Origin: Paraglaciecola marina
Lineage (GTDB): Bacteria; Pseudomonadota; Gammaproteobacteria; Enterobacterales; Alteromonadaceae
Direction of reading: 5' to 3'
NCBI RefSeq assembly: GCF_004360155.1
Contig: NZ_ML178727.1
Span: 594 to 61,561 of the forward strand
DNA length: 60,968 bases
The notes beneath the pieces were generated by a model. The model was not told the DNA's origin. It made no database searches and saw only the letters and a program-made list of their open reading frames with translations. The position numbers were made by a program, and so were the translations under genes. Below are positions 7,512 through 51,111 of the stretch, one piece after another; positions within the stretch are counted from its first letter, which is position 1, and the number at the start of each line of letters is the position of its first letter.

Positions 7512-9092
7512 TTATGCCAATAAAATACCCATAGATGAAGCTACCATTCCATAAATGAGTAAAACAGCCATGCTTCGTTTTAAAATATAACCTTCAACAT
7601 TGTTTAAAGCTAAAATTGACGTTACAGCCACAATATTATGAATACATATCATGTTCCCCATCGCAGAGCCAACAGCTTGTAGCGCCATTATAGTCGACAC
7701 ATTTAAGCCTAAATCTGTAGCAATGGAATATTGAATACCAGCAAAAGTTAAATTTGAAATGGTGGCAGACCCTGAGAAAAACGAACCTAGCGCTCCTAAA
7801 AATGGAGAGAATATAAGCCACTTGTCACCACTTATATTCGCTAGGTTTTGACCTATTAAACTTACAGCTGATTGGGTACCTCCCAACATCATTAAATTAA
7901 CGAAGACTAAAGCCCCCATTAAAGCAATCACAGGTTTTTTTAAACTGGTTCCTGTGTGTAGTAATACAGCCAAAATTTTACCTTTTTTAAACCACCACAA
8001 GCTAAGGAGCCCTATTACTATAAACGGTAATATAGAAGGGACATATAATAAGTTGTGTTGCCACAAAACTTCGGTTTCTAGTATGTTTTCAAGTTTAAAA
8101 ACTAGCGCGGCACTGAGGCTAAAGTCACCTAAAAATCCAAGACTTAATTGCCAAGCTGGGGTGGTGAGTTGTAGTAGGCTTTTAATTCCCAGTTCAGGTA
8201 TTCTGGTAATTACCAATAAAAGTACCGTCCCCCATAAAGGAAAGGTAGCCTTAAATACAGCGCTTAACGATGGAGCTTTACAGCTGTCGGTCAGTAATTT
8301 TTTTGTGTCTAAACCAATATTAAATTTTGCTAGTAACAGGGTAATTATTAAGCCAATTAGTCCGCCAATTAATGACGGAAATTCTACGGTTATAAAACTG
8401 AGTAACAAATATGGCAAAGTACAAGAAAAAGTAGATAACAAAATAAAAACAATATTTTGTTTTAGTTGTTGTTTTTCGCTGACAACAAAAGCTAACGCCC
8501 CTAGCACAACGATAGGAGCAGCGACCGCGTTGATGAGCGCGGCTTTCCAAGCCACTTGATTAAGAATTAATGGAGACAAGTCTGTCATAGATAGACCAAA
8601 CCAAATGGGGGTGCCTACTGCGCCGAAAGTGACAGGAATGGAATTAAGAATTAGGCAAGCTACCACCACGCGAACGGCAGGAAACCCCAACCCAACTAGT
8701 ATTGGAGCCGCTATAGCTGCAGGTGTACCAAAGCCACTTGCCCCTTCAATCAAAAAAGCAAATGCCCAGCCCACTATCATTAGTTGAGCTATATGATTAT
8801 TACTTAATTGATTTAACCAAAGTCGAACGATGTATAAAGCACCACTAACTTCCATGCAACGAAACAAAAAAATTGCGCCAGCTATTATGATAACTGGAGT
8901 TAAAGCCATTAATAAGCCACTCAACACTGAGGCATGTATTAAGTTACTGTCTAGTTTAAATATCCCAAAGACCACAATATAAGCAAAAGAAGCACATAGA
9001 GGTAGGGCTGTACTGGCAGCCATGCTGTGTTTTTTTGTCATCAAATAAATTAACAACATTATGGGGAAGTACGCACTAAACAGTGTCAGCAT
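7512..9092 (-). CDS. lctP: L-lactate permease (LctP) family transporter
   Basis: A 526-residue inner-membrane protein with about 12-14 helices. The LctP signature region is clear: LIEGASGFGTPAAIAAPILV, then FGAVGTPIWFG, and near the C terminus GSFFSGSATISNLTF. Family members carry L-lactate, D-lactate or glycolate with protons. No lactate dehydrogenase gene lies alongside, so the substrate is by family only. The length is slightly below the usual 550 residues, with both ends looking complete. It is monocistronic and separated from the HupE operon by about 200 bases. Confidence 0.88.
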   Translation of the reverse strand: MLTLFSAYFPIMLLIYLMTKKHSMAASTALPLCASFAYIVVFGIFKLDSNLIHASVLSGLLMALTPVIIIAGAIFLFRCMEVSGALYIVRLWLNQLSNNHIAQLMIVGWAFAFLIEGASGFGTPAAIAAPILVGLGFPAVRVVVACLILNSIPVTFGAVGTPIWFGLSMTDLSPLILNQVAWKAALINAVAAPIVVLGALAFVVSEKQQLKQNIVFILLSTFSCTLPYLLLSFITVEFPSLIGGLIGLIITLLLAKFNIGLDTKKLLTDSCKAPSLSAVFKATFPLWGTVLLLVITRIPELGIKSLLQLTTPAWQLSLGFLGDFSLSAALVFKLENILETEVLWQHNLLYVPSILPFIVIGLLSLWWFKKGKILAVLLHTGTSLKKPVIALMGALVFVNLMMLGGTQSAVSLIGQNLANISGDKWLIFSPFLGALGSFFSGSATISNLTFAGIQYSIATDLGLNVSTIMALQAVGSAMGNMICIHNIVAVTSILALNNVEGYILKRSMAVLLIYGMVASSMGILLA

Positions 9093-11776: not shown

Positions 11777-12922
11777 TTGGCTAACTCTGCCCTTTTAGTA
11801 CTTGAAGATGGCTCTGTCTTTAAAGGTACTGCAATTGGAGCTTCTGGTGTATCCGTGGGTGAGGTTGTATTCAATACCTCAATGACTGGTTATCAAGAAA
11901 TTCTAACCGACCCTTCTTACGCTGAACAAATTGTCACCTTAACTTATCCCCATATCGGTAATACCGGTATCAATGAAGAAGATTGTGAATCTAATAAAAT
12001 ATGGGCCAAGGGCCTGATTATTCGTGATTTACCATTAATTGTTAGTAATTTTCGTAGTCAAAAAAGCCTTTCTGAATATTTAGAAGAAAATAACATTCTT
12101 GGTATTGCTGATATCGATACCCGTAGATTGACCCGCATACTGCGTGATAAAGGGGCTCAAAATGGCTGCATCATCGCTAGTAACACTTTAGATACAGTAG
12201 AACTTGATGAAGCGATGGCTTTAGCAAAAGCAAAAGAATTTGCTGGTCTTAAAGGTATGGATTTAGCAAAAGAGGTAACCTGTGACGAATCATACCAGTG
12301 GACCGAAGGAAGCTGGGTTTTAGGTGAAGGTTATATTACCGACCAAGAGCGTACTGATTTTCACGTGGTGGCATACGATTATGGTGTAAAACGTAACATC
12401 TTAAGAATGTTAGCTGACCGTGGCTGTAAATTAACAGTAGTACCTGCTAAAACCACTGCAGAAGAAGTGCTAGCCTTAAAACCCGATGGTGTATTTTTAT
12501 CAAATGGACCTGGTGACCCAGAACCATGTGATTATGCTATCGATGCAATTTCTACATTGTTAGAAACAAACATTCCTATATTTGGAATTTGTTTAGGCCA
12601 CCAATTATTGGCTTTAGCCAGCGGCGCTAAAACCATAAAAATGAAATTTGGCCATCATGGTGCTAACCATCCAGTAAAAGATATAAAAGGTAATAGAGTG
12701 ATGATCACCAGTCAAAACCATGGTTTTGCAGTAGATGAAGCAGACTTACCTGCTCACCTTGAGGTGACACATGTGTCGTTGTTTGATCAATCTTTACAGG
12801 GTATACATCGCACTGATAAGCCAGCGTTTAGCTTTCAAGGTCATCCTGAAGCAAGCCCTGGTCCTCATGATGCTGCACCTTTGTTTGATCATTTTATTGA
12901 GTTGATGCAACAAGCTAAATAG
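11777..12922 (+). CDS. carA: Carbamoyl-phosphate synthase small (glutaminase) subunit
   Basis: Hydrolyses glutamine and passes ammonia to CarB for carbamoyl phosphate, feeding arginine and pyrimidine synthesis. The 381 residues comprise an N-terminal CarA domain ([13 protein letters not shown]) and a class I glutamine amidotransferase domain with the nucleophile in GICLGHQL and the His/Glu pair in [12 protein letters not shown]. The start codon is TTG, placed by the strong GGAGG five bases upstream and the conserved N terminus; E. coli carA also starts with TTG. carB follows after 44 bases. Confidence 0.97.
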
Positions 12923-12966
12923 CACGCCATATTAACAGCACAAAATTTTATAGAGTAATTAGTGAC

Positions 12967-15900
12967 ATGCCAAAACGTACCGACTTAAAAAGCATCTTAA
13001 TTATAGGCGCTGGGCCAATTGTAATCGGCCAAGCCTGTGAATTTGACTATTCAGGGGCACAAGCCTGTAAAGCGCTTAGGGAAGAAGGATACCGAGTTAT
13101 CTTGGTTAACTCGAATCCTGCAACCATAATGACAGACCCTGAAATGGCTGATGCAACATACATCGAGCCTATTCATTGGGAAGTGGTTAAAAAAATCATT
13201 GAAAAAGAACGTCCAGACGCGGTGTTACCGACTATGGGGGGACAAACCGCTCTTAACTGTGCACTAGATTTAAATAAGCATGGTGTATTAAAAGAGTTTG
13301 GTGTTGAGATGATTGGTGCCACGGCTGATGCCATTGATAAAGCAGAAGACCGTGAACGTTTTGATAAAGCCATGAAGTCTATTGGCCTTGAATGTCCCCG
13401 CGCTGAAATCGCACACACAATAGATGAAGCTTTTGATGTTAGTACACGTATTGGGTTTCCTTGTATTATTCGCCCTTCGTTTACTATGGGTGGCTCAGGC
13501 GGTGGTATAGCTTACAATAAACAAGAATTTAAAGAGATTTGTACCCGTGGTTTAGACCTTTCTCCCACCTCTGAGTTATTAATCGATGAGTCTTTAATCG
13601 GTTGGAAAGAGTACGAAATGGAAGTGGTCAGAGATAAAGCAGACAACTGTATTATCGTTTGTACCATTGAAAACTTCGACCCTATGGGAGTGCACACCGG
13701 CGATTCTATAACGGTTGCTCCAGCACAAACATTAACAGATAAAGAATTTCAAATTATGCGAAATGCGGCGATAGCTGTATTGCGTGAAATAGGTGTGGAG
13801 ACCGGCGGTTCAAACGTACAATTTGGTGTGGACCCAGAAACTGGACGGTTGGTTATTATAGAGATGAACCCCCGTGTATCACGTTCATCTGCATTAGCAT
13901 CAAAAGCAACGGGGTTCCCCATTGCTAAAGTGGCTGCAAAACTTGCAATAGGTTATACCTTAGATGAGTTGGCAAATGATATCACCGGCGGTTTGACACC
14001 TGCGTCATTTGAGCCGACTATCGATTATGTTGTTACCAAAATACCGCGCTTTAACTTCGAAAAATTTGCTGGTGCAAATGACCGTTTAACCACACAGATG
14101 AAATCTGTAGGTGAAGTCATGTCTATTGGTCGTAACCAACAAGAATCACTGCAAAAAGCACTGCGTGGCTTAGAAGTTGGCGTAAATGGTTTAGATTCAA
14201 TCATCGATATAACTTCTCCAGACGCTAAAAATATTATCGTTCGCGAATTGCGTGAACCAGGCGCTGAACGAATTTGGTACATAGCAGATGCCATACGTAT
14301 GGGCATGTCAGTTGATGAGATATTTACCCTTACTAATGTTGATAGATGGTACTTAGTTCAAATTGAAGAACTCATTATTTTAGAGCAAAAGCTAACAGAG
14401 ATTGGGTTGTCAGCTATTGATAGTAAACTTATGACTACTCTTAAACGTAAAGGTTTTGCTGACTCACGTATCGCAGAATTAACTGGTGTTGATGAAGTTG
14501 ACGTGCGCGAAGTGCGTCGTGGCTATGATATCCATCCTGTCTACAAGCGAGTTGATACTTGTGCTGCTGAGTTTTCTTCAGATACTGCTTATATGTACTC
14601 AACTTATGATGAGGAATGTGAAGCAAATCCATCTGATAGAGATAAAATAATGGTCATCGGTGGCGGTCCAAATAGGATTGGTCAAGGTATAGAATTTGAT
14701 TATTGTTGCGTACATGCTGCTCTAGCAATGCGAGAAGATGGTTACGAAACCATTATGGTGAATTGTAACCCTGAAACGGTTTCTACAGATTACGACACAT
14801 CAGACCGATTGTATTTTGAGTCAGTTACTTTAGAAGATGTGCTAGAGATAGTACGTATTGAAAAGCCTAAAGGTGTAATAGTGCAATATGGTGGGCAAAC
14901 TCCACTCAAACTCGCTAGAGACTTAGAAGCTGCAGGTGTGCCTATTATTGGTACGTCACCTGATGCTATTGATAAAGCTGAAGACCGTGAACGTTTCCAA
15001 AAAATGGTCAATAAACTTAATCTTAAGCAGCCAGCCAACGCCACTGTTAGCAATATGGAGCAGGCATTAGTTGCAGCTGAGAAAATAGGCTTTCCATTAG
15101 TGGTACGCCCTTCCTATGTGTTGGGGGGCCGTGCTATGGAAATTGTTTACGACTTAAACGACCTTAAGCGCTACTTAAATAACGCTGTTAAAGTATCAAA
15201 TGATTCGCCAGTATTGTTAGATAGATTCTTAGACGATGCCATTGAAGTAGATGTGGATGCCATAAGTGACGGCAAAGATGTCATTATAGGTGGCATAATG
15301 GAGCATATTGAACAAGCGGGTGTCCACTCTGGTGATTCGGCCTGTTCATTACCTTCTTATTCTCTGAGTAGTGATATTCAAGATGTGATGCGCCAGCAAG
15401 TTAAAGCCATGGCTTTGGAGTTAGGTGTTGTTGGCCTTATGAATACCCAGTTTGCTGTTAAAGACGGTCAAGTGTATTTGATTGAGGTAAACCCAAGAGC
15501 GGCACGCACGGTTCCATTTGTATCAAAAGCGACGGGTATTCCTTTAGCCAAAATTGGTGCTCGCGCCATGGCAGGGCAATCTCTTGAGTCTCAGGGGATT
15601 ACTAAAGAAATTATTCCCCCATTTTACTCTGTGAAAGAAGTAGTGTTACCTTTCGCTAAATTCCAAGGCGTTGATCCTCTACTAGGACCTGAAATGCGCT
15701 CTACTGGTGAAGTTATGGGGGTAGGTGAGAGCTTTGAAGAGGCTTATGCTAAAGCTAACTTAGGCGCTAGCCAACCTATACCTACTGGTGGTAAAGCCCT
15801 TCTTTCGGTACGCTTAAATGACCGTAATCGTGTTATTGAATTAGCGCAAATAATGATTGCCAAAGGGTTTGAGCTTGAAGCTACTTCGGGTACTGCTAAG

Positions 15901-39290: not shown

Positions 39291-39641
39291 ATGTTGAAAA
39301 ATAAAACTATAAAAAGATCTTCCTACCTAGCTATTAGTTTGTTTACGTTATTGTCTATTAACTTACAAGCTGCACCATTTGATTGGGATGGCCTTGAGAA
39401 ACAAAAAATAGATTTAAAATTGCCTTTATTGACAGTCCAAGGTGAAAAGGGCTTGCTAGCTTGTGCTTACGTTGACGTTGCCACTTGTGAAAAAACCGGG
39501 GAAGCCTGTGCAATAGTGTCAGGGGTTAAAACCCATGATGATATGTTATCTAGACCTGTCGTTGCATTGTCTAGTGCAGCTGAAGCGTTAGGAGTAACCA
39601 AAGGAATGTCAGGGGCAGAAGCTTTAGCCTTGTTGCGTTAG
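39291..39641 (+). CDS. Exported DUF1805 (YunC-like) protein
   Basis: A 116-residue protein. Residues 1-28 form a signal peptide (basic start, hydrophobic core, cleavage near LQAAP). The mature part matches DUF1805: PLLTVQGEKGLLACAYVDV, then EACAIVSGVKTHDDMLS and VTKGMSGAEALALLR. DUF1805 proteins are usually short cytoplasmic proteins of unknown function, so export is notable. Terminator downstream at 39671. Confidence 0.8.
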   Translation: MLKNKTIKRSSYLAISLFTLLSINLQAAPFDWDGLEKQKIDLKLPLLTVQGEKGLLACAYVDVATCEKTGEACAIVSGVKTHDDMLSRPVVALSSAAEALGVTKGMSGAEALALLR

Positions 39642-39725: not shown

Positions 39726-40745
39726 TTAAATACTGTAGTTTTCAGTTTGTTGATCTAACAGATCTGCAACATTGTTAGGTTCATTGCGCCGGTATTTCTC
39801 ATCTAGTAATTTACCACGCCAATGTTGTTTAGCATGGGTATCCGCTGAAACTTCTCGAACCAATTCAAATATAGCTTTTACAATATTATTGTTTTGTTTT
39901 TGTTCTGCCATTTGCAGATATACCATACGGCTTAAGTTAGGCTCTATCATCCTTATTGGACGAACTTGACCACTTTGTTCTAAATGAAAAGTGGCTGAAG
40001 ACGGACATATTAAAAGTCCTACACCTTGTGTAACGTAATGAAGGGTTGTCATTAATTGCCCAAATCCTCTTTTAGATTTGAGTTTTATACCGCGCTTCTG
40101 GGCTTCTAACTGAAGCAGCTGGGTTAGTGCATCTTTCTGTTCTGGAACAAAAATTTCATAGTGTTGCAGGTCAGTAAAAGGTAGGTTCGAATATAACGCT
40201 AATTCACTATAAGACGGATTTTGTGGTTGTTTTGAAATATATAAAAATAAATCTTCATCAATTATAGGGAGTGCTTTAGAACTCGTATTGATATTCATAG
40301 GGGTAAAACATAATGCTAGGTCGATACTACCTTCAGCTAGCCATTTTTCTACTTCAAAACTAGGCCCTATTTTATAAACCAGTTCAATATTTGCGAACCT
40401 ATGTTCAAGTTCTTTCAACAAGGGTATAGACAGCACATTACAATTAGATTGGCTAAGCCCTAATATCACTTTGCCTTTGTATTCAGACTGGTCACCAGCC
40501 AAGTCTGATTTTGCGGCCTGCATCTGCCCCATTATGAGCTGGGCATGTTTTTCGAATTTTTTTCCTGCTTCAGTTAACTCCACGCCTCTAAAATCCCGAG
40601 CAAACAATTTAGCCTTGAGTTCGTGTTCCAAATTGGCTAACTGCAAGCTTATAGCTGGTTGGGCTACATCCAAATGGCGGGCAGCGGCTGTAATGCTACC
40701 TTGTTCAGCAGTGACTAAAAAATATTGTAATTGCTTAGAGTTCAT
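39726..40745 (-). CDS. LysR-family transcriptional regulator of the amine oxidase locus
   Basis: A 339-residue regulator. The N-terminal helix-turn-helix reads GSITAAARHLDVAQPAISLQ (about residues 16-35). The effector-binding domain follows to about residue 300, and the C-terminal tail is longer than usual. It diverges from the FAD oxidase gene across a 352-base gap, the usual place for a LysR regulator of the neighbouring operon. The inducer is probably a substrate or product of the pathway (inference). The N terminus recalls the NAC/Cbl-type subgroup. Confidence 0.85.
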   Translation of the reverse strand: MNSKQLQYFLVTAEQGSITAAARHLDVAQPAISLQLANLEHELKAKLFARDFRGVELTEAGKKFEKHAQLIMGQMQAAKSDLAGDQSEYKGKVILGLSQSNCNVLSIPLLKELEHRFANIELVYKIGPSFEVEKWLAEGSIDLALCFTPMNINTSSKALPIIDEDLFLYISKQPQNPSYSELALYSNLPFTDLQHYEIFVPEQKDALTQLLQLEAQKRGIKLKSKRGFGQLMTTLHYVTQGVGLLICPSSATFHLEQSGQVRPIRMIEPNLSRMVYLQMAEQKQNNNIVKAIFELVREVSADTHAKQHWRGKLLDEKYRRNEPNNVADLLDQQTENYSI

Positions 40746-41097
40746 AGGCGTTTCATCTTATTTTTAACCGCTTTAATCATTATTAGAATTACGCCTCTAT
40801 ATTCATTTTATGCATATTTATTAGAACTCATTGCGCCCGTTATAATTTCATAAATATATTTGTTGGCCAATTATAAAGAATTAATCGTAATAATTCTTCG
40901 CTTTAATAACAGTTATTTAGATCATAGCAACATTTGTCATCTGATACTTGGCGGGAGCTACAAGCTAGATATATATTTATTATGTACCTGAACAATATTT
41001 ATGTGCCTTCTGTCACATTCGTTCAATTTGTATTATCGCTTTAAGATTTAGTTGTTGTATTGGTTTAAAAATAACAAGGTATTTATCAAATCGCTTT
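40746..41097. promoter_or_regulatory. Divergent control region of the LysR gene and oxidase operon
   Basis: 352 AT-rich bases without a gene. It should hold both promoters and the LysR binding sites. A-T palindromes such as AAATATATTT near 40850 are visible, but no T-N11-A site can be singled out with confidence. Confidence 0.4.
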
Positions 41098-42687
41098 ATG
41101 TTGAATATTACTAGAAGACAATTTCTTACTATGGTCGGAGCCGCAGGCGGCTCTTCGGCGTTACTCAAAACATCTCTAGCTTTAGGCCTAATGCCCGATG
41201 AGCCATACACAGGTCCAGTCAAGGTTAAACCTGCAGCCAAAGGTCAAAATCCAACAGCACTTATACTAGGTGCAGGGCTTGCAGGTTTGTCGACGGCACT
41301 AGAATTAGAAAGAGCCGGTTACGATTGCACTATTTTAGAAGCTTCATTTAGACCTGGTGGCCGTAATCTAACCGTTCGTAATGGTGACAAGATTGACGAA
41401 ATGGGCAACCCCCAGATTTGCCAATTTGACAAACAAGAAAACATGTACTTCAACTGTGGCCCCGCCCGCATACCTGGCCATCATAGACGTTTATTACATT
41501 ATTGCAAAACTCTGCATGTACCGCTACAAATTAAAGCCAACAGCAGCAAGATGGCCTATTTTCAGGATGATAAGTCCCTCGGCGGTAAGCCTAAACGCAT
41601 AGTGGAATATCATACCGATGCCCGTGGTTTGATGTCAGAACTATTATGGAAGTCAGCAGACTCGAATCAGTTCGATCAACTTCTAAGTAAGGAAGATGTC
41701 GCTAAGCTGAAGAAGTTCTCAAAAACCTACGGTGACTTAACTGAAAATGGTAAGTATATAGGGAGTGATAGAGGCGGTTCTACAACAGACCGCATGCTTG
41801 ACTATCCATCACCACGAGCCCCTATTGAGTTGAAAGCAATGTTAGATAGCAGCTTCTGGTACGGTGGCTTATTGGGTTCAGAAACATACGATTGGGCCGA
41901 GCCTCTAATGGAACCTACAGGTGGAATGGACAATGTCATCAAAGCATTTCTAAGAAACCTAAAAAGACAGCCAGTGTTAAATGCTCAGGTTAAGAAAATA
42001 TTTAACCGTGGTTCAGGAGTTGAGGTTACTTATGAGCACAGTGGAAAGTTCCACACTGTAAAAGCTGATTATTGTTTTAACAATATTCCTGCTCATTTTA
42101 TGGCTGGTATAGAAAATAACTTTTCTGATAATTACCAATCTGGTTTAAATGCCATTAAACGGGGTCATTTATTCAAGATTGCTTTTCAAATGAAAGAGCG
42201 GTTTTGGGAGAAAGACGGAATTTATGGTGGGATCAGTTACTCTAAAGATGCCATAGGGCAGATTTGGTATCCGTCGCACGATATTCACGCTCAAAAAGGC
42301 ATTTTGTTAGGTGCATATACTTGGAATGAAAAAGCCACCAAGATGTTCGAAGCTCTGTCGCAAGAGGAACGACTTAAAGCTGGTGCACTTTCAGGTGAGA
42401 AAATCCATCCGGGTTACAGTAAATACATAGAAAATGGCATTACTATTCCATGGTCTCGAATGAATCATCAAATGGGTTGTGGTCTACGAATGAGCCATGA
42501 CAATTTTGAAAAGTACTATCATGTGCTTCAAAAACCTGAAGGTCGCCATTTTATGATTGGCGATCAGATAAGCCATCATACGGGCTGGCAAGAAGGGGCA
42601 TTAGCTTCAAGTGAACAGGCCTTGCAGCAACTAAATAAAATGTTAGCAGCCAACTTTAATATTGGAGAACCCAATTATGTTAGCTAA
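41098..42687 (+). CDS. Tat-exported FAD-dependent amine oxidase
   Basis: A 529-residue flavoprotein. The N terminus has a twin-arginine signal (TRRQFLTMVGAAG, residues 5-17), so it is folded with FAD in the cytoplasm and exported. The FAD-binding motif is ILGAGLAGLSTALELERAG (residues 56-74), followed by GGRN. The C-terminal half carries the amino-oxidase pattern, including HHTGWQEGALASSEQAL. Flavin monoamine or L-amino-acid oxidases of this type oxidise amines to imines. The cytochrome c gene overlaps the stop, suggesting electrons go to cytochrome rather than oxygen. The substrate is not defined by sequence. Confidence 0.85.
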   Translation: MLNITRRQFLTMVGAAGGSSALLKTSLALGLMPDEPYTGPVKVKPAAKGQNPTALILGAGLAGLSTALELERAGYDCTILEASFRPGGRNLTVRNGDKIDEMGNPQICQFDKQENMYFNCGPARIPGHHRRLLHYCKTLHVPLQIKANSSKMAYFQDDKSLGGKPKRIVEYHTDARGLMSELLWKSADSNQFDQLLSKEDVAKLKKFSKTYGDLTENGKYIGSDRGGSTTDRMLDYPSPRAPIELKAMLDSSFWYGGLLGSETYDWAEPLMEPTGGMDNVIKAFLRNLKRQPVLNAQVKKIFNRGSGVEVTYEHSGKFHTVKADYCFNNIPAHFMAGIENNFSDNYQSGLNAIKRGHLFKIAFQMKERFWEKDGIYGGISYSKDAIGQIWYPSHDIHAQKGILLGAYTWNEKATKMFEALSQEERLKAGALSGEKIHPGYSKYIENGITIPWSRMNHQMGCGLRMSHDNFEKYYHVLQKPEGRHFMIGDQISHHTGWQEGALASSEQALQQLNKMLAANFNIGEPNYVS

Positions 42688-43291
42688 ACGTTATCTGTCA
42701 TTTATCATATTTGGTTTGCTTGCGTTTCATCTCAATGCAGAAGAGGTAGTGACACCGGTTGGTTTAGAGTATTGCACTGTATGCCATGGTGCTCAATTAA
42801 AGGGTAATGAAAACATTCAAGCCCCAAGATTATCAGGTTTATCTGATTGGTATTTGGAACGTCAATTACTCAATTTTAAAACTAGAGTTAGAGGCGATCA
42901 CCCGGATAATTTGACCGGGGGAGAAATGATGTTAATGGCTAAAAATTTAACTGCTCAGGAAATCAAAGACATAGTTAAATGGGTAACCTCTACCGATTCT
43001 CCTAAACCTTTGGCAACCATTGAGGGCGATATAAAGGCTGGAGAAGCCCTATATCAAACCTGTTCTGCATGCCACGGTCCTAATGCTACAGGTAATAAAA
43101 TGCTTGGAGCACCTAATTTGAGCGGATTAAATGATTGGTATATATTTAATCAGCTTAATCATTTTAGATTAGGCATGCGCGGTACCCATAAAGCTGACAC
43201 TTATGGTCAACAGATGCGAGCGGTAAGTGGTGTAATTACTTCAGAAAAAGATGCTGCGAACGTAGCTGCATACATTCATCAATTAAAATAG
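42677..43291 (+). CDS. Di-heme c-type cytochrome
   Basis: A 204-residue periplasmic cytochrome with signal peptide (residues 1-21). Heme sites are CTVCHG (Cys33, Cys36, His37) and CSACHG (Cys129, Cys132, His133). The two halves are similar (each with LSGLSDWYL or LSGLNDWYI), a fused tandem cytochrome c like cytochrome c4. The ATG at 42677 overlaps the oxidase stop and has GGAG ahead, so the two proteins are likely coupled: the oxidase passes electrons here and then on to the respiratory chain. Confidence 0.88.
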   Translation: MLAKRYLSFIIFGLLAFHLNAEEVVTPVGLEYCTVCHGAQLKGNENIQAPRLSGLSDWYLERQLLNFKTRVRGDHPDNLTGGEMMLMAKNLTAQEIKDIVKWVTSTDSPKPLATIEGDIKAGEALYQTCSACHGPNATGNKMLGAPNLSGLNDWYIFNQLNHFRLGMRGTHKADTYGQQMRAVSGVITSEKDAANVAAYIHQLK

Positions 43292-43305
43292 CAGGAACAA
43301 AGTTT

Positions 43306-43800
43306 ATGAAAAAATCTTTATTATTGGCGGCAACAAGTTTGTTAGCGACAAGTGCGTTAGCCGATGTTACCCGTCATGCCTTACCTAATAACAGTACTTT
43401 CCCTATTTCTCGTGCTGTTGAAGTATCTCCTGAAACAACTCTAATATTCCATAGTGGTACAGTACCTGGACCTGTAAATCCAGATGCTAAACGTGGTAGC
43501 CGTGAATACTACGGTGATACTGAGACTCAAGCCTTAAACGTATTTAAACGAATGGAAGCTTCTTTTAAAGAACTAGGTGTTGATTTTGGTGACATTATTA
43601 AAATGCAAGTGTTCTTAGTTGGTGACCCAACAATGGACGGTAAAATGGATTTTGCAGGTTTTATGAAAGCCTACACCAAATATTTTGGTACCAAAGAACA
43701 ACCTAATAAACCAGCTCGTTCAGCATTTCAAATTGCTGGATTAGCCGGTGGTCCGAATATGCTAATTGAAATTGAAGCAGTGATTGCTCGACCTAATTAG
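43306..43800 (+). CDS. Exported RidA/YjgF-family protein
   Basis: A 164-residue protein. Residues 1-19 form a signal peptide ending SALA. The mature domain is RidA-like, with the conserved ending AGGPNMLIEIEAVIA and a central QALNVFKRMEA. RidA proteins hydrolyse reactive enamine and imine intermediates. Most are cytoplasmic; export fits its place behind an exported amine oxidase, where it could convert imine products to keto compounds. It lies 15 bases after the cytochrome stop, and a terminator follows. Confidence 0.82.
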   Translation: MKKSLLLAATSLLATSALADVTRHALPNNSTFPISRAVEVSPETTLIFHSGTVPGPVNPDAKRGSREYYGDTETQALNVFKRMEASFKELGVDFGDIIKMQVFLVGDPTMDGKMDFAGFMKAYTKYFGTKEQPNKPARSAFQIAGLAGGPNMLIEIEAVIARPN

Positions 43801-43807
43801 TATTGTT

Positions 43808-43841
43808 AGCCACTAATTTCTCCGAGTTAGTGGCTTTTTTT
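43808..43841 (+). terminator. Terminator of the oxidase-cytochrome-RidA unit
   Basis: AGCCACTAA / TTAGTGGCT with a 10-base loop followed by seven T. It separates this unit from the DASS transporter gene, which therefore probably has its own promoter. Confidence 0.85.
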
Positions 43842-43935
43842 CTATTCTAAATATCTAATATTGCAGTCTTTTTTATTCCACACAGCTTGAAAATATGAGA
43901 GATTATTCACACACCAATTGGGTTCAGTGAGTAAT

Positions 43936-45369
43936 ATGCAAAGCAATAATAAATATATTTTAATATCAATCGTATCTTCCTTAACCTTGTATTTTTTGTT
44001 GATTTTCTGGGGACATAATTCTGCGATTTCAGCAACCGCTGCCATAACCTTATGTACTGCAATGTTATGGGTGACAGAAGCCATTCCAATTCCTGCTACG
44101 TCATTAATTCCATTTTTCGGTTTTCCCATGGCTGGGGTAATTGACTATAAAGAGGCGGCCTCTGCACTAGGAAGTCACGTCATTCTATTATTGATGGGTG
44201 CTTTTATGCTTTCAAAAGCATTGGAGAAGTCAAATGTTCATAGCCGTTTAGCCTATTATTTAGTGAATATCACTGGTGGAAAAAGTGCTAAGCGTTTGGT
44301 TTTAGGCTTTATGCTTACTGCTGCAATATTAAGCATGTGGATTTCAAATTCAGCAACAACCCTGATGTTATTACCCATCACTTTAGCGGTTTTAAAACAT
44401 GTAAAAGATCCACGTTTAACCATAGCCATGTTATTAGGTATTGCATACGCAGCAAGTTTAGGTGGGGTAGGTACTCCTGTTGGGACTCCACCTAATATCA
44501 TTTTTATGAGTGTATTTTTAGAATCTCAGGGTAAAGAGATTAACTTCTTAGAGTGGATGAAAACAGGAGTGCCAATCGTAGTTATTGGGATACCTGTTAT
44601 TGCGTGGTGGTTAACTCGAAAACTAGACGACAAGCAAGAATTTATATTACCTAAATCTGGTAAGTGGTTACCTGCTGAAAAGCGAGTATTGATTATCTTT
44701 TTAGGTATTGCATTAGCTTGGATGTTTAGACCCTATTGGACAGTTTGGTTAAATATGCCCTCAATTGGTGATAGTACCGTTGCTTTGGTGGGGGTTCTAG
44801 TGATGTTTTTAGTACCTAATGGCAATAGAACTGAACTGCCAAATACAAAAGTTGATGCAACCAAAAAAGAAAAATTTGGTGAGGTAGTCGAAAAACCAAA
44901 GTCTGACAAACTCCTCGATTGGGAAACCGCAGTGGATATTCCTTGGGGGATGTTGTTATTGTTTGCCGGTGGTATTTGTATCGCTAAAGCCTTTTCGGCA
45001 TCCGGTTTAAGTGAGTTATTAGGGCAATTATTGACTGGATTGTCAGCTTTACCTGTTCCTTTACTTATCTTATCAATTTGTTTATTTGTAACATTTTTAA
45101 CTGAAATTACCTCTAATACAGCAACCGCCACTTTGTTAATGCCCATTTTAGCGGCTACGGGAATGGCCGCAGGTATTGACCCTGCGCTAATGATGATGCC
45201 AGCAGCCATTAGTGCAAGTTGTGCATTTATGTTACCGGTTGCCACTGCTCCAAATGCAATTGTTTACGGTATGAACAAATTTAGTATTCAAACTATGGCA
45301 CGGGAAGGCTTTATGCTAAATGTATTTTTGGCATTTATTATTACTGGTGTAAGTTACTTCACTATTTAA
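43936..45369 (+). CDS. DASS/SLC13-family sodium-coupled carboxylate transporter
   Basis: A 478-residue membrane protein with about 11-13 helices. Family motifs: SNSATTLMLLPITLAVL, then GGVGTPVGTPPNIIF, and in the second half TEITSNTATATLLMPILAA. Members carry di- or tricarboxylates, sulfate or taurine-like compounds with sodium. The start is ATG 43936 (in-frame TTG at 43918 and GTG at 43927 are less likely). In this locus it could take up keto or carboxylic acid products made in the periplasm (inference). Confidence 0.87.
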   Translation: MQSNNKYILISIVSSLTLYFLLIFWGHNSAISATAAITLCTAMLWVTEAIPIPATSLIPFFGFPMAGVIDYKEAASALGSHVILLLMGAFMLSKALEKSNVHSRLAYYLVNITGGKSAKRLVLGFMLTAAILSMWISNSATTLMLLPITLAVLKHVKDPRLTIAMLLGIAYAASLGGVGTPVGTPPNIIFMSVFLESQGKEINFLEWMKTGVPIVVIGIPVIAWWLTRKLDDKQEFILPKSGKWLPAEKRVLIIFLGIALAWMFRPYWTVWLNMPSIGDSTVALVGVLVMFLVPNGNRTELPNTKVDATKKEKFGEVVEKPKSDKLLDWETAVDIPWGMLLLFAGGICIAKAFSASGLSELLGQLLTGLSALPVPLLILSICLFVTFLTEITSNTATATLLMPILAATGMAAGIDPALMMMPAAISASCAFMLPVATAPNAIVYGMNKFSIQTMAREGFMLNVFLAFIITGVSYFTI

Positions 45370-45757
45370 AAAATGCACTTAGAAAGTATGATTAACAAAG
45401 AAGTTTGAGAAAGAAATCTCTGTACTTTCAGCTTTATTTTGAAATGTTTCTTCACATTTATAAACGACGACTGGCTCTATTTTTGAGTTAACAAACTTGT
45501 TTTTTTTTAGTTTTTGTTATGTTGTTATTTTGTAATTATTTGTAAAATAAATGCAACTTTTGATGCTTTGCACCATTGTGGGGTTTTAAGTTCTGGAGTG
45601 GTGCTTTAGTTTGCTGGGTGTTCTTCTAGGCCCCTATATAACTGGTTGTATCGGTCTTGGCATCATTTCTGCAGTTTCACCTTTGTACAGCATTTTACTC
45701 TGTATGTTCATAAGAGCTTAGCTCAATTTAATTAAAATTTTTTAGAATAGTGGTGTT
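45370..45757. promoter_or_regulatory. Gap before the TauE/SafE gene
   Basis: 388 AT-rich bases with no gene. A weak promoter candidate is TTGCTG (45611-45616) with TATATA 18 bases later (45635-45640). Confidence 0.35.
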
Positions 45758-46576
45758 ATGGAACTGGAGTTGTTGTTGTTTGTTGCTACCTTGTGTGTAG
45801 CTGGTGCAGTTGCCGGTATAACCTCGGGGTTATTTGGCAATGGAGGTGGGTTTGTAGTGGTTCCAGCCTTATTGGCTGTTTTTCCATTTTTCACTGAGTC
45901 TTCAGCTGAATTAATGCAAGTTGCGGTGGGTACGTCTTTGGCGTCTATCATAATATCGAGTACTCGATCGGTACAGGCTCATCACCGTAAAGGAGCCGTA
46001 GACTTTAAGGTCTTAAAAGACTGGGCTATTTGGCTCGTTTTAGGTGTGTTGATCGGTATTTATATAGCGTCTAAAACTAGCTCAAATGCACTGATATTGG
46101 TTTTTGCTACTGGTGTATTCTTTTATTCTATTTATTTTCTATTTCCAAAATTGTTTGCAGGTAAAACAGACTCTTTAGACATGCCAAAAGGAATAGGGCG
46201 AGCTGCTTTGGCTACTTTTTTAGGTGGCTTTTCAGCATTGTTAGGTATAGGTGGTGGAACTATAACTGTTATGACTATGGTGATATGTAATAGGCCTGTT
46301 CATCAAGCGGTTGCAACGGCTGCAGGTGTTGGCTTTATTATTGGTTTACCGGGAGCTATAGGGTTTATGGCAATGGGACATAATGTACCTAATTTACCCT
46401 ATGGAACATTCGGTTACGTAAATATACCCGCGCTAATAGCGATTAGTGTTGGCTCAATCATTACTGCACCAATTGGTGCTAAGTGGGCCCATAGTTTAGA
46501 TGAAGTACTACTTAAGAAACTATTCGGTGTGTACCTTATCGTAGTGTCAATTTGTATGTTCTATAAAGCGTATTAA
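45758..46576 (+). CDS. TauE/SafE-family permease
   Basis: A 272-residue membrane protein with about eight helices. The first repeat has AGAVAGITSGLFGNGGGFVV and the second FLGGFSALLGIGGGTITVM, the duplicated Gly-rich motif of the TauE/SafE family. Members export or import sulfur compounds and organic acids. It lies 32 bases before the aminotransferase gene, so the two are probably cotranscribed. The substrate is inferred only. Confidence 0.87.
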   Translation: MELELLLFVATLCVAGAVAGITSGLFGNGGGFVVVPALLAVFPFFTESSAELMQVAVGTSLASIIISSTRSVQAHHRKGAVDFKVLKDWAIWLVLGVLIGIYIASKTSSNALILVFATGVFFYSIYFLFPKLFAGKTDSLDMPKGIGRAALATFLGGFSALLGIGGGTITVMTMVICNRPVHQAVATAAGVGFIIGLPGAIGFMAMGHNVPNLPYGTFGYVNIPALIAISVGSIITAPIGAKWAHSLDEVLLKKLFGVYLIVVSICMFYKAY

Positions 46577-46608
46577 AACTTAAAGATAAAAATTAAAGGT
46601 AAAAAATT

Positions 46609-47766
46609 ATGACTGATAAATTAAGTAGACGTTTATTTTTACAAGGTTCAGTGGCTGCTTCAGCACTTGCTGCAAGTGGTATTATTACGGGTTCTGCTGT
46701 TGCTGCCCATCATCAGACTCCTGCTGTTGCTTATGGACCCAAGCCGGGCGTTGCTAAGTTAAATGCCAATGAAAACCCTTATGGACCTAGTCCAGCGGCC
46801 ATGAAAGCTATTATGGAAGCTAGTGCAAAAGGGGCATATTATGCTGCTGATCCTTATCGCGTTTTAGTGGACATGATTGCAGAAAAAAACTCAGTTAGTA
46901 AATCTCAGGTTTCTTTAAGTGCTGGTTCCAGTGGTGTGCTTTCATACACGGCAGTACTTGCCTCTACTAAAGGCAAGATTTTAGGGCCGGATTTATTTTG
47001 GGATACCACGGCTAAAACGCCACAAAAAATTGGTGCTGAAAAAATCAAACGAACAGCAAAGACCAAAGATTTAGGTATTGATTTAGACGCTATGTATGCA
47101 GCAATTACGCCTGACGTCGCCATGGTGCAAATTACAAATCCAAATAACCCTACAGGTCGATTATTAGATCCCGTTAAGTTGCGTGAGTTTTGTATAAAAG
47201 CTTCTAAGAAAGTCTTGGTACTAGTTGATGAAGCGTATAACGAAGTGACTGATATGCCTGAGAAAAACTCCATGATGGGCTTAATAAATGAAGGTCATAA
47301 TGTTGTAGTTGCACGAACATTCTCAAAGCTATTCGGATTAGCTGGAATGCGTGTTGGTTATATGATCGCTTCGGAAGAAAATACAGCTGAAATAAATCGT
47401 TATAGCCTAGGCGGTTACTCTATGAATCAAGCTGGTTTAGCTGCAGCAATTGCTAGTTATAATGATGAAGCTTTCTTAAAAATGTCTAAATCTAAAATTG
47501 TCGAAGGCAGAGAAATGATTTTATCTGCGGTTAAGGCTAACGGATTAATTGCTTTACCATCTGAAACAAATTTTGTATTTGTTGATTTGGGTAAAGGTAA
47601 TGCTGAAATATTCAGACAAGAAATGGCTAAGCAGAATGTATTAATTCGTGGTATTTACCGTGATTATAATAACTGGTCTCGAGTGAGTACTGGTTTGATC
47701 CCTGACGTACAAAAATATGTTGATGCTATGCCTTTGGCGTTAGAGAAAACTCTAGCTAAAGCTTAA
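46609..47766 (+). CDS. Tat-exported PLP aminotransferase, HisC-like
   Basis: A 385-residue fold-type I aminotransferase related to histidinol-phosphate transaminases. Residues 5-30 form a twin-arginine signal (LSRRLFLQGSVAASAL). PLP sites: NPNNPTG (177-183), DEAYNE (207-212) and the Schiff-base Lys240 in TFSKLFGLAGMRVGY. An exported PLP transaminase is unusual; PLP would be loaded before Tat export. Its biosynthetic HisC role is unlikely given the signal and the catabolic neighbours. Amino donor and acceptor are unknown. Confidence 0.85.
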   Translation: MTDKLSRRLFLQGSVAASALAASGIITGSAVAAHHQTPAVAYGPKPGVAKLNANENPYGPSPAAMKAIMEASAKGAYYAADPYRVLVDMIAEKNSVSKSQVSLSAGSSGVLSYTAVLASTKGKILGPDLFWDTTAKTPQKIGAEKIKRTAKTKDLGIDLDAMYAAITPDVAMVQITNPNNPTGRLLDPVKLREFCIKASKKVLVLVDEAYNEVTDMPEKNSMMGLINEGHNVVVARTFSKLFGLAGMRVGYMIASEENTAEINRYSLGGYSMNQAGLAAAIASYNDEAFLKMSKSKIVEGREMILSAVKANGLIALPSETNFVFVDLGKGNAEIFRQEMAKQNVLIRGIYRDYNNWSRVSTGLIPDVQKYVDAMPLALEKTLAKA

Positions 47767-47782
47767 TTACTTAACATTATTG

Positions 47783-47817
47783 GTTACTAGTAGCTTAAGT
47801 ATTAAGTTACTAGTAAC
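47783..47817 (+). terminator. Hairpin after the aminotransferase gene
   Basis: TTACTAGTAGCTTAA (47784-47798) pairs with TTAAGTTACTAGTAA (47802-47816) around GTA, 15 pairs with one G-T wobble and an extra outer G-C. The following sequence lacks a clean T-run. Confidence 0.6.
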
Positions 47818-48441
47818 TGGTTTAACTGCAATAAACTCTAGCGTCATTCTGCTTTTTTCATTCTTTATTTATTCCCAAGTTAGCTGAATTTTATACACTT
47901 TAGATGAACGTAGGAGTTTCAATTAGCCTGCTTCGAAGATTTTCTCACGTGCTTAAAGCACTTGAGAGTTAGACGTATCGGTTTCTATCAATTGTTATCA
48001 AATCAATTTAGGTCTCTTCTTAACTGACGATAAGTCCACTCAATCGTTATGATAATTTTAAGTTGCAACATATAGGTGCAATTAGTCTTTTTTGGCCCGT
48101 TTAAATGAGCTTTTGCTCACCCTAGTTGTTTTTGTTTAACCTCCTTTTAGATTAATTTAGGTTGTCGTAAATGCTTGAGCATCGCTGCAGCTATTAATTT
48201 TAAAGGGGTTGGCGAGATATAAGAAAAATATTGTCCCCATAAATAGTAAAACCGGTTCCGGTTGGCATCTGAGTTGCTTTTTACATGTAGAGGAATGGTA
48301 ATTAATAACCAATATTTATTTATTAAGTGCATTGCACAGAATTAATACACAAGAATAATTAACAGAGTACTGATTTTAGTTGATAAGTAATTCCCAACGT
48401 TTTCAAGCACATAATAAAAATGTCAAAATAAGAGGTAATAC
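47818..48441. promoter_or_regulatory. Long leader of the TonB-dependent receptor gene
   Basis: About 620 bases with no supported gene. It holds two striking palindromes: CTCA-c-GTGCTT-a-AAGCAC-t-TGAG at 47944-47966, and AACCGG-TT-CCGGTT at 48250-48263. Both look like operators. A minus-strand frame at 48147-48332 has no RBS or recognisable product and is left out. The RBS AAGAGG precedes the 48442 ATG. Confidence 0.45.
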
Positions 48442-51111
48442 ATGCTTAAGCTACACACACTAAGTCGTTCTATTCGACGTAATTTACCGGTAATTGCAGC
48501 CAGTACTGGTTTGCTTTTAACGTCACCCACTATTCTAGCTCAAGAAGAGCAGGCTGATGATGCAAACACAGAACAAATTGTTATTACAGGTTCTCGTGGG
48601 GCACCTAGGTCGGTAGCAGATTCAGCAGTGCCAGTAGATGTTTTCAGTGAAGAAGACTTAGTATCTGTACCGTTTACTGATACTAACGATATTTTAAAAA
48701 CCTTAGTTCCTTCGTATTCTTTATCACGTCAACCCATTTCTGATGGTGCATCATTTATACGTCCTGCTACATTACGCGGTATGCCTACCGATAAAACACT
48801 AGTACTGGTTAACTCAAAGCGTCGCCATCGTTCTGCTCTAGTGCAAATTGGTGGTTCAGGTACTCAAGGTCCAGATATCGCAACTATTCCTTCTTCTGCA
48901 CTTAAAGGTGTTGAAGTGTTGCGTGACGGTGCGGCCGCTCAATATGGTTCAGATGCAATTGCTGGTGTGATTAACTTTCAGTTAAAAGATAATGATGAAG
49001 GAGGTTCTCTTTCAATAGATATGGGTCAATATTATGAAGGTGACGGTGAGCAATTTACTGTAACTGGTAATATTGGTTTTGCGTTAGGTGACAAAGGTTT
49101 CGTTAGTGTGTCTGGTGAAATATCGGATCAAAGTGCTACCTCTCGTTCAGAACAATATTGTGAGTCTTGGGCTTGTGTAGATTCAGACTCTGAAGACTTT
49201 TTAAATTTTGATACTTCAGTTTACGGATATGATGAAGCTGCGTACATTGAAGGCCTAGCTGATGCAAATATTGGTTTTGGTGATGTAGTGCAGCCATGGG
49301 GACAACCAAACTCTGCAGCAACGCGTTTGTTTATTAACTCAGGCTACGAAATTAACGATACCACTAGACTTTATGCCTTTGGTAACTATTCATCAAGCGA
49401 GCATGATGGTGGATTTTTCTATCGTTACCCAGGTAATGGCACAATCGAGACACTTCGTTTAGAAGATGGATCTTTATACTCACCATTAGAAAAATTCCCA
49501 GGTGGATTTACCCCTCGATTCTTTGGTGATATCACAGATTTCTCATTTGTGGCGGGGATTGAAGGTGAGTTTGCTAACGAAATGACCTACGACTTTAGTG
49601 GTCGCTTCGGTTCAAACGAAATTTCTTATACACTTAAAAATACCATAAACCCATCGTTAGCCGATGAATCACCCACGGAGTTTCACCCAGGTGACTTGAT
49701 TAACGAAGAGTTACAATTAACAGCTGACTTTACTCAATATGTAGACTTCGGTATGGCTAACGAAGTGTTGTTCGCATTTGGTGCAAGTTACATGGAAGAA
49801 ACCTATGAGCTTGTGGAAGGCGATGAAGATTCATATAAAGTAGGCGATTTTTCATATTCGGATACATTTGACTTCTGTAATGATGACGGTTCAACGACTG
49901 CAGATGGTCAAAATGTAATTGATAATTTTGGTTCGTCTCTAGACTGTTCAAATCCTGACGATCCTGTTTATACGTCAGTTAGCCCAGGTTCAAATGGCTT
50001 CCCTGGATACTCCCCAGAATATTCACAAAAATATACACGTGATTCTTTAGGTGTCTATTTAGACGTAAGTACTGATGTAACAGACGCTTTCTTTATACAA
50101 GGTGCATTACGTTACGAAGACTACTCTGATTTCGATGCTGAATTAGTTGGTAAAATTGCATTTAAATATTCACTAACTGACGAAATTAATGTACGTGGTT
50201 CAGTAGGTACAGGCTTTAGAGCACCTACACCGGGTCAACAAGGTACCATTAACGTATCTACTCGATTACCTGATGGCTTCCCTGTTGCGACAGGTCTGTT
50301 TCCGGCACTTAGCGCTGAAGGTCAAGCTTTGGGTGCAGAACCACTTAGGCCAGAAACTTCTGAGAATTTATCTTTAGGTATGTCTGGTAGTTTTGATGAC
50401 CTGACTTTAACCATTGATTTTTATAGAATTGCTGTAGATGATCGTTTTTATGCTGTATCTACACGAGATGTTTCATCATTTGAACCTACGGATCCTAATG
50501 ACGATGATTATGAATCCGATTTAGCTGCCTATGAAAACTATCAAGCGTTACTTCTTGCAGCTGGAGAAGAAACCGCAGGTTCTATTGGTGGAGTTAACTT
50601 CTTCCAGAATGCATTTGATACTGTTACTTCAGGTGTTGATATTGTTGCTACTTATACATTAGGCGACACTGTTTTAACTGGTTCTGTAAACTACAACTCT
50701 TCAACTATTAATAATTTTGGTTCGGAAGAGTTAGAAGAGTTCTTGAACGATGAAGGCCAATATGATTTTGAAAACAGTGCTCCAAAGTGGAAGGGTGTTT
50801 TCTCTGCTAAGCATAGTTTTGATGCGTTAAGCGTTTTAGTTCGTGCTAACCTTTATGGGTCTTATTCAAATGCGATCGACTCTGCTGCAACTAATGTTCA
50901 AGAATATGACCCTAGTGTATTGTTTGATTTAGAAATGAACTATGCATTAAGTGATTCTTTAACCTTAGCAGCTGGTGCTCGTAACTTGTTTGATACTTAC
51001 CCTGATGAAGGTGATAGTGGTGATGCATGTTGTGGTCGAGTATACTGGTCTGGTGACACAGTAGATTGGCAAGGTGGTTACTACTACGCTCGTTTAAACT
51101 ACACTTGGTAA
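48442..51111 (+). CDS. TonB-dependent outer-membrane receptor
   Basis: An 889-residue receptor. Signal peptide residues 1-33 (ending ILAQ). TonB-box-like EQIVITG follows. The plug domain (about 50-190) has the motif LVLVNSKRRHRSALV and VEVLRDGAAAQYGSDAIAG. The rest is a 22-strand barrel ending in Trp (ARLNYTW), as needed for barrel assembly. It imports a scarce compound with TonB energy. The substrate is unknown; its place after the amine oxidase, transporter and aminotransferase genes suggests it feeds that pathway (inference). Confidence 0.9.
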   Translation: MLKLHTLSRSIRRNLPVIAASTGLLLTSPTILAQEEQADDANTEQIVITGSRGAPRSVADSAVPVDVFSEEDLVSVPFTDTNDILKTLVPSYSLSRQPISDGASFIRPATLRGMPTDKTLVLVNSKRRHRSALVQIGGSGTQGPDIATIPSSALKGVEVLRDGAAAQYGSDAIAGVINFQLKDNDEGGSLSIDMGQYYEGDGEQFTVTGNIGFALGDKGFVSVSGEISDQSATSRSEQYCESWACVDSDSEDFLNFDTSVYGYDEAAYIEGLADANIGFGDVVQPWGQPNSAATRLFINSGYEINDTTRLYAFGNYSSSEHDGGFFYRYPGNGTIETLRLEDGSLYSPLEKFPGGFTPRFFGDITDFSFVAGIEGEFANEMTYDFSGRFGSNEISYTLKNTINPSLADESPTEFHPGDLINEELQLTADFTQYVDFGMANEVLFAFGASYMEETYELVEGDEDSYKVGDFSYSDTFDFCNDDGSTTADGQNVIDNFGSSLDCSNPDDPVYTSVSPGSNGFPGYSPEYSQKYTRDSLGVYLDVSTDVTDAFFIQGALRYEDYSDFDAELVGKIAFKYSLTDEINVRGSVGTGFRAPTPGQQGTINVSTRLPDGFPVATGLFPALSAEGQALGAEPLRPETSENLSLGMSGSFDDLTLTIDFYRIAVDDRFYAVSTRDVSSFEPTDPNDDDYESDLAAYENYQALLLAAGEETAGSIGGVNFFQNAFDTVTSGVDIVATYTLGDTVLTGSVNYNSSTINNFGSEELEEFLNDEGQYDFENSAPKWKGVFSAKHSFDALSVLVRANLYGSYSNAIDSAATNVQEYDPSVLFDLEMNYALSDSLTLAAGARNLFDTYPDEGDSGDACCGRVYWSGDTVDWQGGYYYARLNYTW

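Follow-up and report, generated by a model that had tools for sequence, protein, structure and literature searches.

A LysR regulator and TonB receptor apparently common to chemically different candidate periplasmic deamination modules in Paraglaciecola marina

The closest described counterpart of the locus studied here is the lao-cccA-ridA operon of Gluconacetobacter diazotrophicus, in which a twin-arginine translocation (Tat)-signal, L-amino-acid-oxidase-like flavin amine oxidoreductase (FAO), related to the Rhodococcus enzyme, is clustered with a cytochrome c and RidA; in the portion of that paper available to us, lao transposon mutants make no indole-3-acetic acid from tryptophan (PMC5053998). 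A wider group of FAO-superfamily dehydrogenases that use cytochrome c comprises NicA2, Pnao, and more than 100 predicted members. According to the excerpted text of that survey, a Tat signal together with an adjacent Sec-exported cytochrome c predicted dehydrogenases, the kinetics agreed, and cytochrome adjacency was the stronger predictor of dehydrogenase function (PMC12224317). For the partner proteins, the Rid3 proteins PFL_1385 and PSPTO_3006 are reported, in the section consulted, to lower the imines that L-amino acid oxidase forms from Leu, Gln, Phe, Met, and His (PMC5619798). Here, we analyze a stretch of 60,968 nucleotides from Paraglaciecola marina (contig NZ_ML178727.1, positions 594 to 61,561, forward strand; hereafter the window), which carries such an FAO next to a LysR regulator, a permease-aminotransferase pair, and a TonB-dependent receptor (TBDR).

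A first-pass annotation had proposed eight adjacent genes of the window as a single pathway for oxidizing amines or amino acids in the periplasm. The triad of FAO, cytochrome c, and Rid is of an already known kind, and the eight genes as one new pathway are unsupported. What seems to be new is that a LysR regulator and a receptor are common to chemically different deaminating modules, and that two such modules are stacked in one genome; we found no paper on such an arrangement in the searchable literature, which lacked most subscription journals. We consider it reasonably probable that the LysR and the TBDR form a chassis for periplasmic deamination with exchangeable modules, and that the window carries both modules. 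The features concerned are as follows.

39726..40745, minus strand: LysR-family regulator (Pfam), divergent from FAO
40983..41013, plus strand: operator-like box ATANT-N8-TTC upstream of FAO, spotted by eye in an alignment
41098..42687, plus strand: Tat-exported FAO of the L-amino-acid-oxidase type (PF01593)
42662..43291, plus strand: exported di-heme cytochrome c with two CxxCH motifs, its 5' part overlapping the FAO gene; the ATG at 42677 is the likelier start
43306..43800, plus strand: exported Rid-family imine deaminase (predicted), nearest Rid3 (PF01042)
45758..46576, plus strand: TauE/SafE (TSUP) permease (PF01925), in a module with the aminotransferase
46609..47766, plus strand: Tat-exported pyridoxal phosphate (PLP) aminotransferase, class I/II, HisC/PtaA-like (PF00155; SRRLFL)
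48442..51111, plus strand: TBDR of a specific subfamily (Pfam)

All eight open reading frames (ORFs) listed by the first-pass annotation, these seven genes and a DASS-family symporter described below, are present, each with a Pfam match above cut-off. Export signals are likewise seen as TRRQFL in FAO, SRRLFL in the aminotransferase, and Sec-like N-termini on the cytochrome, Rid, and TBDR, all of them calls made from motifs (twin-arginine, Sec-like hydrophobic N-termini, CxxCH).

The twin-arginine motif stands at FAO residue 5, and a Tat-like motif is found in 39 of 43 FAO relatives, the other four being L039-L041, which show TRRQC/SRREC, and the truncated L028. Among solved structures the top match to FAO is 2jae, entitled “L-amino acid oxidase” (E 8.4e-69, 236 bits), which we take to be the Rhodococcus enzyme; the next solved relatives are also named L-amino acid oxidase, and monoamine oxidases rank lower. 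In the alignment, read by eye, R124 and Y407 of FAO coincide with the carboxylate-binding Arg and Tyr of 2jae, presumably Arg84 and Tyr371 in the numbering and role known for the Rhodococcus enzyme. R124 is kept in 162 of 164 aligned rows (with two gaps) and Y407 in all 164; W497 is also conserved. Since this carboxylate-binding pair is retained, an alpha-amino acid appears a likelier substrate than a simple amine.

The three genes of the triad lie on the same strand, FAO and cytochrome overlapping and a 14-bp gap preceding Rid. The cytochrome has a hydrophobic Sec-like N-terminus, and its two CxxCH motifs recur in 38 of 38 relatives. Because the cytochrome c gene adjoins FAO, we predict FAO to be a cytochrome-c-reducing dehydrogenase that feeds respiration. 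A Tat signal on FAO and an adjoining Sec-type cytochrome c are both genomic hallmarks of the surveyed dehydrogenases, which pass electrons to cytochrome c and not to oxygen. However, that survey started from NicA2, whereas L-amino acid oxidases are the nearest relatives of the window FAO, and its main text never uses the term RidA, whereas the window has a Rid gene (excerpted text of PMC12224317).

The label “RidA” is loose for this gene. An exported Rid protein is real, but it scores 48.2 against the 106.25-bit cut-off of the RidA model TIGR00004, and its nearest solved structures are the Rid3 proteins PSPTO3006 (117 bits) and PFL1385 (104 bits), the next reaching 31. Its arginine within PARS at 136-139, in a P-A/S-R pattern seen in 34 of 34 relatives, aligns with PARTA of PSPTO3006; we take it to be the equivalent of RidA Arg105 (the Salmonella motif). 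The window Rid carries a Sec-type signal, while export is not discussed for the Rid3 proteins in the section consulted (PMC5619798). By description, the window core thus resembles lao-cccA-ridA in its Tat-signal FAO clustered with cytochrome c and a Rid protein, whereas a LysR/TBDR chassis, DASS, TauE, and aminotransferase are not mentioned for Gluconacetobacter in the available portion of that paper (PMC5053998). The first-pass annotation knew of no described extracytoplasmic pathway with the full set; within the literature searched this holds, while for the core such a statement would be too strong, judging by the parts of PMC5053998, PMC10805672, and PMC12224317 that were available.

Scanning a single genome for each species yielded 28 FAO loci, and 15 from other genomes of the family and order brought the total to 43. 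The closest FAO is 98% identical and comes from Paraglaciecola, and several Paraglaciecola loci have the same flanking genes. Among the 13 loci whose FAO is at least 70% identical (L002-L013, L046), the triad is adjacent, the LysR divergent, and the TBDR of the same subfamily in every one. All five of these core genes are intact in 12 of the 13; the TBDR of L012 is split into two frames (543 + 449 aa, approximately 12800-15600), which may be a pseudogene or an error of the metagenome-assembled genome (MAG). At 50-70% FAO identity the triad is adjacent in 6/7 loci, the LysR present in 2/7, and the TBDR subfamily in 3/7; at 40-50% the triad is adjacent in 10/19, with neither the LysR nor the window TBDR subfamily in any of the 19; and below 40% it is adjacent in 0/4, for an overall 29 of 43. 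Because the LysR and TBDR drop out before the triad does as FAO identity falls, the triad is apparently old and the LysR/TBDR chassis younger. The five-gene core thus recurs in relatives, while no other locus that we read holds the full set of eight genes. No TauE or aminotransferase gene lies within 12 kb of FAO in the 43 loci, within the stretches covered.

More distant FAO relatives occur on 36 plasmid records (34-38% identical for those listed), and we read the surroundings of eight. A cytochrome c gene stands beside FAO in all eight, downstream in seven and upstream in Deinococcus radiodurans (L063:4197-6581), and an annotated RidA comes next in three (Microvirga, Sulfitobacter, Ketogulonicigenium), the gene table being incomplete. 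Cytochrome c oxidase genes lie directly upstream of FAO and cytochrome c in Dinoroseobacter shibae pDSHI02 (L060:303-7036) and a Roseinatronobacter plasmid (L064:448-7029). These neighborhoods suggest respiratory coupling over a wide range, as genomic support and not as proof for the window FAO. Other arrangements were also encountered. In a Pseudohongiella-type locus (L022:3160-11563), FAO is divergent from a 719-aa regulator-like protein (Trans_reg_C), and Rid, cytochrome, and a different TBDR lie 3-7 kb from FAO on the opposite strand. In gammaproteobacterial MAGs (L015:3791-11235 and, by clustering, L016), molybdopterin-dehydrogenase-like subunits and a cytochrome b561 are followed by the triad.

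The aminotransferase leads to a second set of loci. It carries a motif, TFSKLFGLAG, which we take to be that of the PLP lysine, and it scores 175.8 bits against the 500-bit cut-off of the PtaA model NF051461. Like PtaA of Pseudomonas, which acts in the periplasm, it is a Tat-exported PLP aminotransferase (PMC6206403, seen in part); unlike PtaA, it falls below the cut-off of the PtaA model and sits with TauE and a TBDR. In two overlapping samples, one of 118 family genomes and one of 295 from the order, an orthologous aminotransferase (at least 62% identity) is found in nine genomes including the window's, with TauE directly before it in all nine. Five of these (G009, G068, G308, G318, G328) share the gene order LysR (divergent), TBDR, TauE, aminotransferase; in G100 the order is LysR (divergent), TauE, aminotransferase; and in G088 and G002 the stretch around TauE-aminotransferase holds neither the LysR nor the window TBDR subfamily. 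None of the eight other genomes has an FAO match at E<=1e-120, and G100 has a distant FAO (34%) on a separate contig with Rid adjoining and no cytochrome beside it. On the plasmid records, no aminotransferase match was found at E<=1e-60.

The receptors tie the two sets together. TBDRs of the five LysR-TBDR-TauE-aminotransferase genomes are 58-63% identical to the window TBDR, which shares at most 33% with its paralogues in the window genome, so that the earlier assignment of the aminotransferase to the receptor gains support: five other genomes place an aminotransferase behind the same TBDR and LysR subfamilies. With a subfamily threshold of E<=1e-150, and the best 7 (family) or 3 (order) candidates per genome scored, the TBDR subfamily occurs in at least 15 of 118 family genomes. 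Twelve have FAO beside it (including the window, with three extra genes between), two have TauE-aminotransferase, and in G100 neither module is beside it, the TauE-aminotransferase pair being on another contig. The order sample, with at least 10 of 295, adds G308, G318, and G328 (TauE-aminotransferase) and G355. Together these are at least 19 genomes, 12 with FAO and 6 with TauE-aminotransferase (the window in both), and two, G100 and G355, with neither beside. In G355 (L050:1991-11171) we also note, about 5 kb off the TBDR, a 31% aminotransferase relative with a weak Tat-signal match, plus a LysR gene. In a tree, FAO-type receptors, TauE-aminotransferase-type receptors, and the two lone TBDRs form one clade, with the window TBDR among the FAO type.

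Public protein lists point the same way. Among the best 120 matches each, FAO and TBDR share 15 identical contig nucleotide totals and aminotransferase and TBDR share 4, whereas shifted-size controls averaged 0.24 and 0.1, with maxima of 2 and 1. Of the 15, four or more (L003, L010, L011, L035) are among the loci counted above. TauE-aminotransferase with a window-type TBDR thus probably occurs in no fewer than four further genomes or contigs, one of them a Paraglaciecola with 92% identity in the aminotransferase and 82% in the TBDR. FAO and aminotransferase share no contig by nucleotide total among the best 120 matches each.

The regulator and a putative operator are likewise common to both sets. 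We queried the window LysR against eight genomes, with G088 and G002 not among them. In 6/6 genomes with a LysR beside TBDR-TauE-aminotransferase or TauE-aminotransferase, the LysR of that locus is the top match (209-236 bits); remaining LysR matches are at most 90 bits, bar a second G100 copy at 205. All 16 LysR-FAO intergenics contain the box, L012 in the variant ACATT, as do 4/5 LysR-TBDR intergenics of the TauE-aminotransferase type, the fifth having TTG for TTC. A matrix built from 15 FAO-type sites only, and run on whole 18-19 kb loci on both strands, placed its top match in the LysR-divergent intergenic of 6/6 test loci, a region averaging 2.7% of the locus. Of 500 column-shuffled matrices, 400 reached 0/6, 90 reached 1/6, and 10 reached 2/6. 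Regulation through this box by the window LysR is a putative step. A strict operator pattern, run on 10 genomes, matched the FAO promoter in four (G054, G089, G117, G046); its other matches were two sites away from the locus in G004, each with 3 mismatches. As a route to a wider regulon it was set aside as uninformative beyond the locus, with two matches in the reversed-pattern control and the window's own site missed. The TauE-aminotransferase-type pattern gave one window match, at 40794 with 2 mismatches, which is at chance (39/100 shuffles).

How the window genes are transcribed bears on whether they form one system. A further element lies directly 3' of Rid.

43808..43835, plus strand: intrinsic terminator with a 12-bp stem and T run

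Over the region as a whole, sites resembling terminators are no more frequent than chance predicts (9 found versus 9.4 expected), and we rely on this one hairpin with its T run. Of the 11 relatives that were folded, none has a T run in the opening part of the spacer between Rid and TBDR, and L011 also lacks a stable hairpin there. Consensus promoters (27 found versus 37.5 expected) were not used. The window box occurs once, upstream of FAO, with a score of 31.4 against 6.8 for the next best match. Both the terminator that follows Rid and the absence of any other box speak against the eight genes as one operon. We expect FAO, cytochrome, and Rid to form one transcription unit, with DASS, TauE-aminotransferase, and TBDR as separate units; the FAO and TauE-aminotransferase modules of the window are thus probably in separate transcription units.

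Under the chassis reading, the TBDR would import through the outer membrane a substrate that contains nitrogen and resembles an amino acid, perhaps an aromatic one, and the Tat-exported FAO would oxidize the alpha-amino group of this substrate. Electrons would then pass to the di-heme cytochrome c and on to the respiratory chain instead of oxygen, and the exported Rid may hydrolyze the resulting imino acid, giving a 2-oxo acid and ammonia. In the other genomes whose LysR and TBDR belong to these subfamilies, the Tat-exported aminotransferase and the TSUP permease would achieve deamination by transamination; the parts played by DASS and TauE are putative. Of the joint pathway in the first-pass annotation, what gains genomic support is the Tat-exported FAO beside cytochrome c and exported Rid, with a LysR and TonB receptor. 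What lacks support is a single eight-gene pathway, given that TauE and aminotransferase occur without FAO elsewhere and that a terminator follows Rid.

Several observations weigh against the chassis reading. Its whole support is genomic and comes from comparing sequences. The LysR and TBDR subfamily accompany FAO in close relatives only, and in eight of the nine triad misses at 40-50% identity the cytochrome lies 3-6 kb off on the opposite strand, four of the eight having Rid displaced likewise (the ninth, L028, is a 3.2-kb contig). The range of box scores in test loci (5.5-21.4) runs into that of the best background hits in seven control loci (1.7-10.8), so that the box evidence is one of rank and not of score, and in the window DASS, TauE, and TBDR have no box upstream. 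The TBDR tallies are possibly low, given the number of candidates scored per genome. The G355 receptor has neither orthologous module near it, although it lies about 600 bases from a contig end with one side unread, and the subfamily is also present in Hyphomonas, Henriciella, and others (neighborhoods unread). Finally, the window TauE and aminotransferase group in trees with the stand-alone G088 and G002 copies and not with those of the LysR-TBDR loci. Since the window TBDR groups with the FAO type, it seems that TauE-aminotransferase was paired with this TBDR subfamily on more than one occasion. We take such repeated pairing as a sign of a common substrate, chance insertion being the alternative.

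There is a rival account in which only FAO, cytochrome, and Rid are functional as an ordinary lao-cccA-ridA operon, the LysR and TBDR are lineage-specific companions, and DASS, TauE, and aminotransferase are unrelated passengers. The eight-gene set found in no other locus read, the terminator after Rid, the TauE-aminotransferase pairs of G088 and G002 without LysR or window-type TBDR, and the loss of LysR and TBDR from more distant FAO loci all fit it. Against it stands TauE-aminotransferase behind the same TBDR subfamily in five other genomes, with a counterpart LysR and a similar box, while the trees make the window's own pairing look like a separate event; we hold this account to be rather unlikely, if a serious contender. 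It is improbable, in our view, that FAO is instead an oxygen-using periplasmic L-amino acid oxidase, making hydrogen peroxide for antibacterial or nitrogen-scavenging ends while the cytochrome serves otherwise. The model would be Chlamydomonas LAO1 with LAO2/RidA, an algal system that makes hydrogen peroxide and for which cytochrome c is not mentioned with LAO1 in the available text (PMC10805672). The closest solved relatives are indeed named oxidases, and Tat-FAOs without a cytochrome reacted fast with oxygen, but cytochrome adjacency was the stronger predictor of dehydrogenase function (excerpted text of PMC12224317) and is seen here across Gammaproteobacteria, Alphaproteobacteria, and Deinococcus. 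Very improbable is a periplasmic role in tailoring or breaking down a TonB ligand such as a siderophore, in the way that PtaA and PvdN tailor pyoverdine, rather than in burning amino acids for energy or nitrogen. Beyond the PtaA precedent (PMC6206403, seen in part), it could appeal to the nearest solved relatives of the TBDR, which are siderophore, colicin I, and B12 receptors, yet these matches are generic and mostly in the plug region, for which reason naming a TBDR ligand from them was also given up.

A single further locus may widen the range of modules. The second G100 LysR copy lies directly behind an amine-dehydrogenase cluster on the same strand (L055:9154-16022), which comprises a TBDR, an amine dehydrogenase heavy chain, MauE, a MauD-like protein, a light chain, and a cytochrome-c-like gene just under cut-off. 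We take this cluster to be of the aau/mau type. Its heavy chain scores 147 bits to aromatic amine dehydrogenase and 49 to methylamine dehydrogenase. It differs from the window locus in being a quinoprotein system by family and not a flavoprotein one, and in a TBDR of another kind, which gives no match to the window TBDR; the cluster is absent from the window, and the box was not found at L055. This one locus, again of a periplasmic amine-oxidizing type, hints at aromatic substrates. A 4-hydroxyphenylpyruvate dioxygenase near the aminotransferase in L030 was likewise considered for an aromatic substrate and given little weight, being on the opposite strand and in a lone locus among those scanned.

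Only tentatively, and with clearly less confidence than the chassis itself, we extend the proposal to a LysR/TBDR chassis that takes flavin, PLP, and (once) quinoprotein modules, in which co-resident modules could carry out periplasmic transdeamination. The aminotransferase would move amino groups from FAO-resistant substrates onto the 2-oxo acids produced by FAO and Rid, and FAO would oxidize the amino acid so formed, releasing ammonia and respiratory electrons. Such a cycle would give a periplasmic transaminase a source of amino acceptor.

Two further genes flank or interrupt the core.

39291..39641, plus strand: exported DUF1805 protein of 116 aa (PF08827, 70.5 bits), convergent with LysR
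43918..45369, plus strand: DASS-family anion symporter (TIGR00785, 249.6 versus a cut-off of 198.6); ATG more likely at 43936

The DUF1805 gene beside LysR is a ninth gene that the first-pass annotation overlooked. Of the 13 loci at or above 70% FAO identity, nine have it next to LysR, and two of these nine (L003, L010) lack nagZ in the locus. The nearest solved relatives of the DASS protein are SLC13 carriers, and VcINDY is also matched; six close loci (L002, L004, L006, L007, L013, L046) also have a DASS gene, in another position than the window's, upstream and flanked by nagZ and DUF1805. The idea that a mobile element inserted DASS-TauE-aminotransferase was considered and rejected, with the ORFs there screened for transposases only as far as the Pfam families used for annotation. 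Between 43700 and 48500 there are only a few repeats, all of them short (17-20 nt) and imperfect (82-89% alike or complementary), and no pair encloses the trio. Elsewhere in the window, an L-lactate permease adjoins a DUF6152 protein on the minus strand (5612-9092).

If the chassis reading is true, cytochrome-c-linked flavin amine dehydrogenases would extend beyond the catabolism of alkaloids to that of amino acids in marine bacteria, and they would be tied to a specific TonB receptor and regulator, which would offer a handle on what the receptor imports. A periplasmic transaminase beside a dehydrogenase that produces oxo acids would bear on the regeneration of the transaminase cofactor, a step left as an assumption in the part of PMC6206403 available to us. 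A regulator and receptor common to chemically different deaminases would mean that it is the substrate that is conserved, and not the chemistry.

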